64,000 nucleotides of DNA from Glandiceps talaboti (taxonomy: Eukaryota > Hemichordata > Enteropneusta > Spengelidae). A model generated the notes under the pieces. It was given only the letters and a program-made list of their open reading frames with translations, searched no databases and had not been told where the DNA came from. The stretch spans positions 20,970,592 through 21,034,591 of the forward strand of contig NC_135554.1 of assembly GCF_964340395.1 (NCBI RefSeq), given 5' to 3'. Positions 31,866-59,018 of this stretch are shown here, one piece after another (positions within the stretch are counted from its first letter, which is position 1; each line of letters starts with the position of its first letter). The translations under genes and the position numbers were made by a program.

Positions 31866-32069
31866 TCATCTGTGCAAATCGACATCCTCATCTATTTTTC
31901 TTCTATTTCGATTTTGGGTTGACTCCCTAGGCTTCTTGTTATTCCTAATGCTGATGTAAATCAACAGAAAGACGTTCTTCAGATATTCTAACAACTCGAT
32001 GGCTGTGATAACAGAGACTCCTATGTACAGTCCAAGTAATCCGCCAACATCACTGGCCAGATCTTCTCC
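31866..32069 (-). CDS. Gene B last exon: TM2 and C-terminal tail
   Basis: [37 protein letters not shown], then a basic and acidic tail of about 25 residues and TGA. The GLxxGxSxxTxxE block is the DEG/ENaC pore signature; the selectivity filter reads G-V-S. The acceptor is GTCCAG. Confidence 0.94.
   Translation of the reverse strand, partial: GEDLASDVGGLLGLYIGVSVITAIELLEYLKNVFLLIYISIRNNKKPRESTQNRNRRKIDEDVDLHR

Positions 32070-59018: not shown

Follow-up and report, generated by a model that had tools for sequence, protein, structure and literature searches.

A predicted DEG/ENaC channel subunit with a third membrane span and an extracellular FN3/EGF arm in acorn worms

The analysed window, 64,000 nucleotides of the acorn worm Glandiceps talaboti (Hemichordata, Enteropneusta, Spengelidae; NC_135554.1), carries on one strand the exons of an EGF/FN3 receptor followed by those of a DEG/ENaC channel, which raises the question of whether the two sets of exons form one gene or two. 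We call the candidate fused gene, with its possible product, gene A, and its tandem paralogue gene B. On the evidence below, gene A very probably represents a single frame in which a DEG/ENaC subunit is preceded by a signal-peptide/FN3/EGF arm, a predicted membrane span (TM0) and a linker predicted to be cytoplasmic, an arrangement whose likely role is to relay contact or ligand binding at the arm to the channel gate.

Gene A occupies positions 59018 to 31866 and is read on the minus strand. Its 29 exons join into one open frame of 1404 residues with no internal stops, and all 28 introns are bounded by GT-AG; exon ends in both genes were chosen by eye at frame-keeping GT-AG sites, so this openness is partly by construction. 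The initial annotation had described a signal peptide, FN3, eight EGF exons and a TM0 exon followed on the same strand by a linker and a channel, and we found this series in gene A. The N-terminal half comprises a signal-peptide-like start, judged from hydropathy alone, FN3, eight EGF repeats, TM0 (residues 464-482), a basic tail and a 110-residue linker. The channel half continues with WHG, TM1 (residues 607-625), FPAVTICN, five LDLa-like repeats, an ShK domain, one more LDLa-like repeat, the remaining ectodomain, TM2 and a short tail (Table 1). The EGF model (PF00008) scored above its cutoff on the EGF block alone (31.6 bits, 2e-07) and just under it on the whole protein (21.1 bits against 21.5).

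Table 1. Exons and domains of genes A and B, with positions in the window, strand and supporting matches or splice-site scores
Feature	Position	Strand	Phase, score or match
Gene A exon 1, signal-peptide-like start	58925..59018	-	start codon, context ACC ATG G; hydropathy peak 1.44
Gene A exon 2, FN3	53378..53659	-	PF00041 1.4e-06, residues 41-115
Gene A exons 3-10, eight EGF-like repeats	45376..52152	-	a single repeat in each exon, phase 1-1 throughout
Gene A exon 11, TM0 and basic tail	44653..44786	-	phase 1 to 0; hydropathy 2.71
Gene A exon 12, linker	44401..44480	-	phase 0 to 2; acceptor 7.3, donor 11.9
Gene A exon 13, remainder of linker, HG motif, TM1, FPAVTICN	42939..43411	-	takes phase 2; PF00858 1.4e-19
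Gene A exons 14-18, five LDLa-like repeats of outer loop	40087..42617	-	PF00057 5e-25, five stretches
Gene A exon 19, ShK domain	39342..39464	-	PF01549 1.4e-09
Gene A exon 20, sixth LDLa-like repeat	38562..38705	-	from sequence reading; five of six repeats pass Pfam
Gene A exons 21-28, remainder of DEG/ENaC ectodomain	33191..37440	-	alignment to beta-ENaC, ASIC2 and ASIC1
Gene A exon 29, TM2 (G-V-S), short tail and stop codon	31866..32069	-	sequence and alignment
Gene B exon 1, signal-peptide-like start	21270..21348	-	start codon, context ATA ATG G
Gene B exons 2-3, pair of chitin-binding type 1-like domains	19063..19940	-	PF00187 7.8e-05, 23.3 bits, under cutoff 27.8
Gene B exons 4-12, FN3 and eight EGF-like repeats	9196..17633	-	fn3 2.7e-06
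Gene B exon 13, TM0 and basic tail	8712..8851	-	phase 1 to 0
Gene B exon 14, linker	8344..8408	-	phase 0 to 2; acceptor 7.6, donor 8.2
P0020 alternative last exon, within gene B intron 14	8160..8279	-	acceptor 1.4, two of 46 lower
Gene B exon 15, remainder of linker, HG motif, TM1, FPAVSICN	7588..8060	-	acceptor 5.2
Gene B exons 16-23, LDLa-like repeats, ShK-like exon, early ectodomain	400..7034	-	LDLa 2.3e-19

Gene B runs on the minus strand from 21348 to the edge of the window, with 23 exons and 1200 open residues, and leaves the window before TM2. As far as the window reaches, its plan is that of gene A with two chitin-binding-like domains added ahead of FN3. By eye, chitin-binding-like stretches also occur in two of the related predicted proteins described next (two in P0005 and one in P0006).

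At the level of predicted proteins, the same domain order occurs in related genomes, the check proposed in the initial annotation: six of the eight database proteins that we assign to the group (P0001-P0006) cross from TM0 through the linker to TM1. They come from Ptychodera flava (P0001, P0004 and P0005), Saccoglossus kowalevskii (P0002 and P0006) and G. talaboti itself (P0003, LOC144436962, a third paralogue), three species that represent three enteropneust families. P0001, P0002, P0003, P0005 and P0006 contain a signal-peptide-like start, arm, TM0, linker and TM1, with P0006 irregular ahead of TM2; P0004 contains a partial arm with TM0, linker and TM1, and has neither signal peptide nor TM2. 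The two members that do not cross are P0020 (arm only) and P0140 (a channel fragment starting after TM1). The group was drawn from the protein-search matches listed (19; the best 120 of 652; the best 120 of 143), and gene A did not appear among these under its own name. Given this shared order of the two halves in six predictions from three acorn-worm species, the channel likely comes with a tether or ligand sensor of its own. Each of the six crossing proteins is a prediction, and one common error could affect them all.

When 19 channel halves were placed in a tree, all eight fused rows fell on one side of a branch with support of 98/98, corresponding to one change of layout. The fused clade consisted of three groups, each supported at 100/100: gene A with P0001 and P0002, gene B with P0005 and P0006, and P0003 with P0004. 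The first two each hold all three species and the last holds two. An arm tree of seven rows, with P0004 omitted, recovered the A and B groups, and so did a channel tree of seven rows. Provided the gene models are correct, the fused protein would already have existed in the shared ancestor of these families in more than one copy, and in three according to the tree. The 19-row tree left out P0012 and P0140, both lacking TM1, as well as P0223, and contained no ASIC rows; P0008 entered as its last 469 residues alone and P0153 uncut, and long branches were seen for P0153, P0013 and P0010. As modelled, P0008 has no TM1 and P0144 no TM2, and the description of both as two-span rests on kinship.

In gene A the TM0 exon runs from phase 1 to phase 0, the linker exon from 0 to 2, and the channel exon takes phase 2; the corresponding exons of gene B have the same phases, so the phase fit claimed in the initial annotation held in both genes. 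In both genes the junction splice sites have scores usual for these genes: acceptors scored 4.3 to 7.6 against a median of 6.1 (n=46) and donors 8.2 to 11.9 against a median of 7.6 (n=47), with the acceptor of gene A exon 13 (4.3) lying under most training acceptors (12 of 46 scored lower). We rejected these scores as sole proof, as AG and GT sites of similar score occur by chance in the same stretches. The gap from TM0 to channel measures 1.2 kb in gene A and 0.65 kb in gene B, whereas 10.5 kb separate the stop of A from the start of B. Neither gene reads as a single-pass type I EGF receptor, since both frames continue through linker and channel; the exception is P0020, the NCBI model of gene B.

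Equal phases and matching arm and channel trees would likewise be produced by a pair of adjacent genes, a type I EGF/FN3 receptor and a two-span LDLa-ENaC, that had duplicated together and been joined by the gene predictors and the first reading of the sequence. The arm-only P0020 would suit such a pair, as would possible separate start codons, in-frame ATGs at 43428 (before the A channel exon) and 8429 (before the B linker exon). Both ATGs have weak contexts and lie within the acceptor region; we retain an independent start of the channel as a caveat. The two halves would, however, have to have been joined at the same place in six predictions from three families. In addition, the linkers of A, B and P0003 contain no Met, neither AATAAA nor ATTAAA occurs in gene B from 8711 to 7700, and between-species similarity is present in three of 28 linker pairs. 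The P0020 tail likewise has no convincing counterpart in the junction introns of gene A (three frames) or in six linkers, the best result over 12 comparisons being 13 of 300 shuffles, with the P0006 linker. Counting against a fusion, the junction introns of gene A contain four poly(A)-like hexamers, and P0140 is modelled as a channel-only fragment. We regard two separate genes as quite improbable, and infer that one transcript is made across arm and channel.

Counted between the TM0 end and the T(T/S)WHG motif, the linker measures 92-110 residues in all eight proteins (genes A and B and the six crossing predictions). The A and B linkers gave no alignment, with 362 of 500 shuffles scoring as well, in agreement with their earlier description as unrelated. 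P0003 and P0004 share a conserved middle part of the linker (matched by 0 of 500 shuffles), and weaker similarity links B with P0005 and A with P0002 (3 of 500 each); in the other 25 of the 28 pairs among the eight proteins, including A-B, A-P0001 and B-P0006, no convincing similarity was found. With only three of 28 pairs having 5 or fewer of 500 shuffles as good, linker similarity was rejected as a general proof of fusion. The peptide around the gene B linker exon resembles the P0005 linker (2 of 1000 shuffles) and does not resemble the P0006 linker (889 of 1000).

The NCBI model of gene B deserves separate consideration. A stretch of 468 residues of the gene B arm is identical to P0020 (G. 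talaboti, LOC144436956), which uses the same TM0 donor and then ends after TM0 in a different last exon. This is what would be expected if one gene gave two products, a fused channel and an arm-only receptor made through an alternative last exon, with the arm-only form the main one for gene B. The TM0 exon itself offers another such route. The initial annotation had stated that this exon meets a stop in both genes when read through unspliced; this is true of gene A, where the stop comes after 2 codons, but gene B stays open for 53 codons past the donor, which favours the two-product reading and makes a receptor form by intron retention possible. The open stretch (8711-8550, minus strand) has a serine-rich, tail-like appearance. 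The alternative last exon, however, has an acceptor weaker than nearly all those of the training set (Table 1), and its stop lies about 100 bases ahead of the gene B channel exon, with no poly(A)-like hexamer after it down to 7700. The front of P0020 is incomplete, beginning inside the FN3 exon, and P0005 and P0006, the relatives of gene B, are modelled as fused. The weak acceptor and these fused models reduce the weight of P0020 as counter-evidence. We take P0020 to be a partial model or a minor form, although it may be a true receptor-only isoform; to the full two-product scheme we give very little credence.

The channel half of gene A belongs with the DEG/ENaC family. PF00858 (ASC) matched it at 3.6e-72 (244.3 bits against a cutoff of 23.6), and downstream of the LDLa block, as far as and including TM2, the sequence can be aligned with solved structures of beta-ENaC (3.2e-38), ASIC2 (3.4e-37) and ASIC1 (1.3e-35). 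Like ASIC and ENaC, gene A has an HG motif, TM1, FPAVTICN, a cysteine-rich ectodomain and a TM2 with G-x-S. The HG motif reads TSWHG in A and TTWHG in B, and the G-x-S of A is GVS, opposite GAS in ASIC2; the TM2 of B lies outside the window. The initial annotation had called this half a complete ENaC, and the HG motif, TM1 and TM2 of A bear that out, but the outer loop also contains, after FPAVTICN, six LDLa-like repeats and an ShK domain (exons 14-20) that were absent from its description. Gene A further differs from ASIC and ENaC in the predicted third span and the signal-peptide/FN3/EGF arm in front. Described DEG/ENaC subunits have two spans, according to PMC10148893 and PMC10507113, whereas three hydrophobic spans follow the signal-peptide-like start in A, P0001, P0002, P0003 and P0005. 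Given three predicted spans, against a family plan of two with both termini in the cytoplasm, we classify gene A as a variant with a DEG/ENaC channel half and not as a plain member of the family.

A fused protein need not conduct. It could be made and serve as a receptor for adhesion or endocytosis, or be a regulatory subunit that is itself silent, either of which would be compatible with the fused layout. LRP2 is the top solved match of the gene A channel half, owing to the LDLa block, and many C. elegans DEG/ENaCs, EGAS channels among them, gave no current when alone, according to PMC10424705. Both points favour a non-conducting role, but the retention of the HG motif, TM1, TM2 and G-x-S in A, together with an ectodomain aligned to ASIC and ENaC, leads us to consider such a role unlikely.

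The nearest relatives of the fused clade in the 19-row tree are armless LDLa-ENaC proteins from hemichordates and a sea star (P0007, P0009, P0010, P0011, P0013 and P0141-P0144). They share the channel core and outer-loop LDLa repeats with the fused proteins and differ in having neither arm nor TM0; in the nine models, the HG-type motif is preceded by 23 to 186 residues. Precomputed Pfam annotation lists PAN, kringle, SRCR, CUB, TSP1 or F5/8C modules in P0007, P0009, P0010, P0013, P0142 and P0143, and P0144 also lists PAN and F5/8C. As the armless models begin no more than 186 residues before the HG-type motif, these extra modules must lie after TM1. Within the LDLa-ENaC kindred, DEG/ENaC channels thus seem to have gained binding modules by two routes. 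The module-bearing armless relatives are channel subunits of up to 1718 residues.

In the C. elegans touch channel, a MEC-4/MEC-10 pore works with MEC-9, an EGF-type extracellular protein. The likeness to gene A is one of working only, since the nematode extracellular protein is made from its own gene, whereas in gene A it is part of the subunit. The C. elegans EGAS channels are named for EGF plus ASC and, going by that name, resemble the fused proteins in combining both in one protein (PMC10424705). EGAS channels are the main threat to the novelty of the fused layout, and would be a precedent if their EGF repeats lie before TM1 behind a further span. The main text of a paper on hemichordate ASICs does not contain the words LDL or EGF (PMC9949801). 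We recognised no description of a three-span DEG/ENaC with a receptor arm in the mostly open-access literature searched. The fused proteins are best read from their sequences as a DEG/ENaC variant of old origin, with three spans and a covalently attached extracellular arm whose predicted role is tethering or sensing.

Charges around TM0 bear on how such a subunit might sit in the membrane. In all eight proteins, net charge over 20 residues ranges from -1 to 0 on the N-terminal side of TM0 and from +6 to +10 on the C-terminal side (0 and +9 in gene A), a pattern that fits an arm outside the cell and a linker inside. The signal peptide and an out-to-in TM0 would place the arm outside and the linker in the cytoplasm, and TM1 and TM2 would then retain the normal DEG/ENaC orientation. 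ASIC and ENaC subunits form trimers. If three of the fused subunits assembled in the same way, the pore would be ringed by three arms, each of which may bind matrix or a neighbouring surface, in B-type genes perhaps a chitin-like polymer. A pull or ligand signal could then pass through TM0 and the loop of roughly 100 residues to the HG-motif segment before TM1 and bias opening, while the LDLa/ShK array of the outer loop might offer a second binding surface. An AlphaFold2 model of P0004 with five relatives had a mean pLDDT of 33.9, with low-confidence helices at the TM0 and TM1 positions and little else, and was rejected as too poor to use as evidence.

The cytoplasmic segment before TM1 takes part in DEG/ENaC gating, and the opening of these channels by outside tethers is a long-standing question that has been studied in touch neurons, which use a separate tether protein. 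If the predicted layout is true, a stable three-span arrangement would mean that the gating segment before TM1 can be wired directly to an adhesion-type receptor. With the tether in the same chain, tether gating could be tested directly in experiments that cut, swap or pull the arm. Going further, we suggest tentatively, as a possibility short of a probable one, that the fused proteins form a DEG/ENaC class with its own covalent adhesion arm (FN3/EGF, with chitin-binding-like domains in one group), anchored by the third span. Its cytoplasmic loop would act directly on the gate before TM1, making the channel self-contained and force- or ligand-gated, and the class would be at least as old as the ancestor of the three acorn-worm families.

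Several minor observations concern the surroundings of these genes. A scan for bacterial promoters and terminators was set aside as having no bearing on an animal gene. An apparently intact LTR retrotransposon lies between genes A and B (22026-29886, plus strand); its 300-base end repeats are identical (22026-22325 and 29454-29753), and its one long open reading frame (22733-28081) contains gag-, pol- and chromodomain-like stretches by eye. The second intron of gene A contains, at 53105-52770 on the minus strand, a stretch that by eye resembles the end of a LINE-type reverse transcriptase, and at 63590-63480, on the same strand as gene A, we noted by eye an apparent last exon of an upstream gene. 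In P. flava, P0001, P0004, P0005, P0011 and P0140 are each assigned to a contig of 45,689,849 bases, and in G. talaboti P0003 and P0020 to one of 28,834,500 bases; given these matching contigs within each species, the family is likely clustered on one chromosome.
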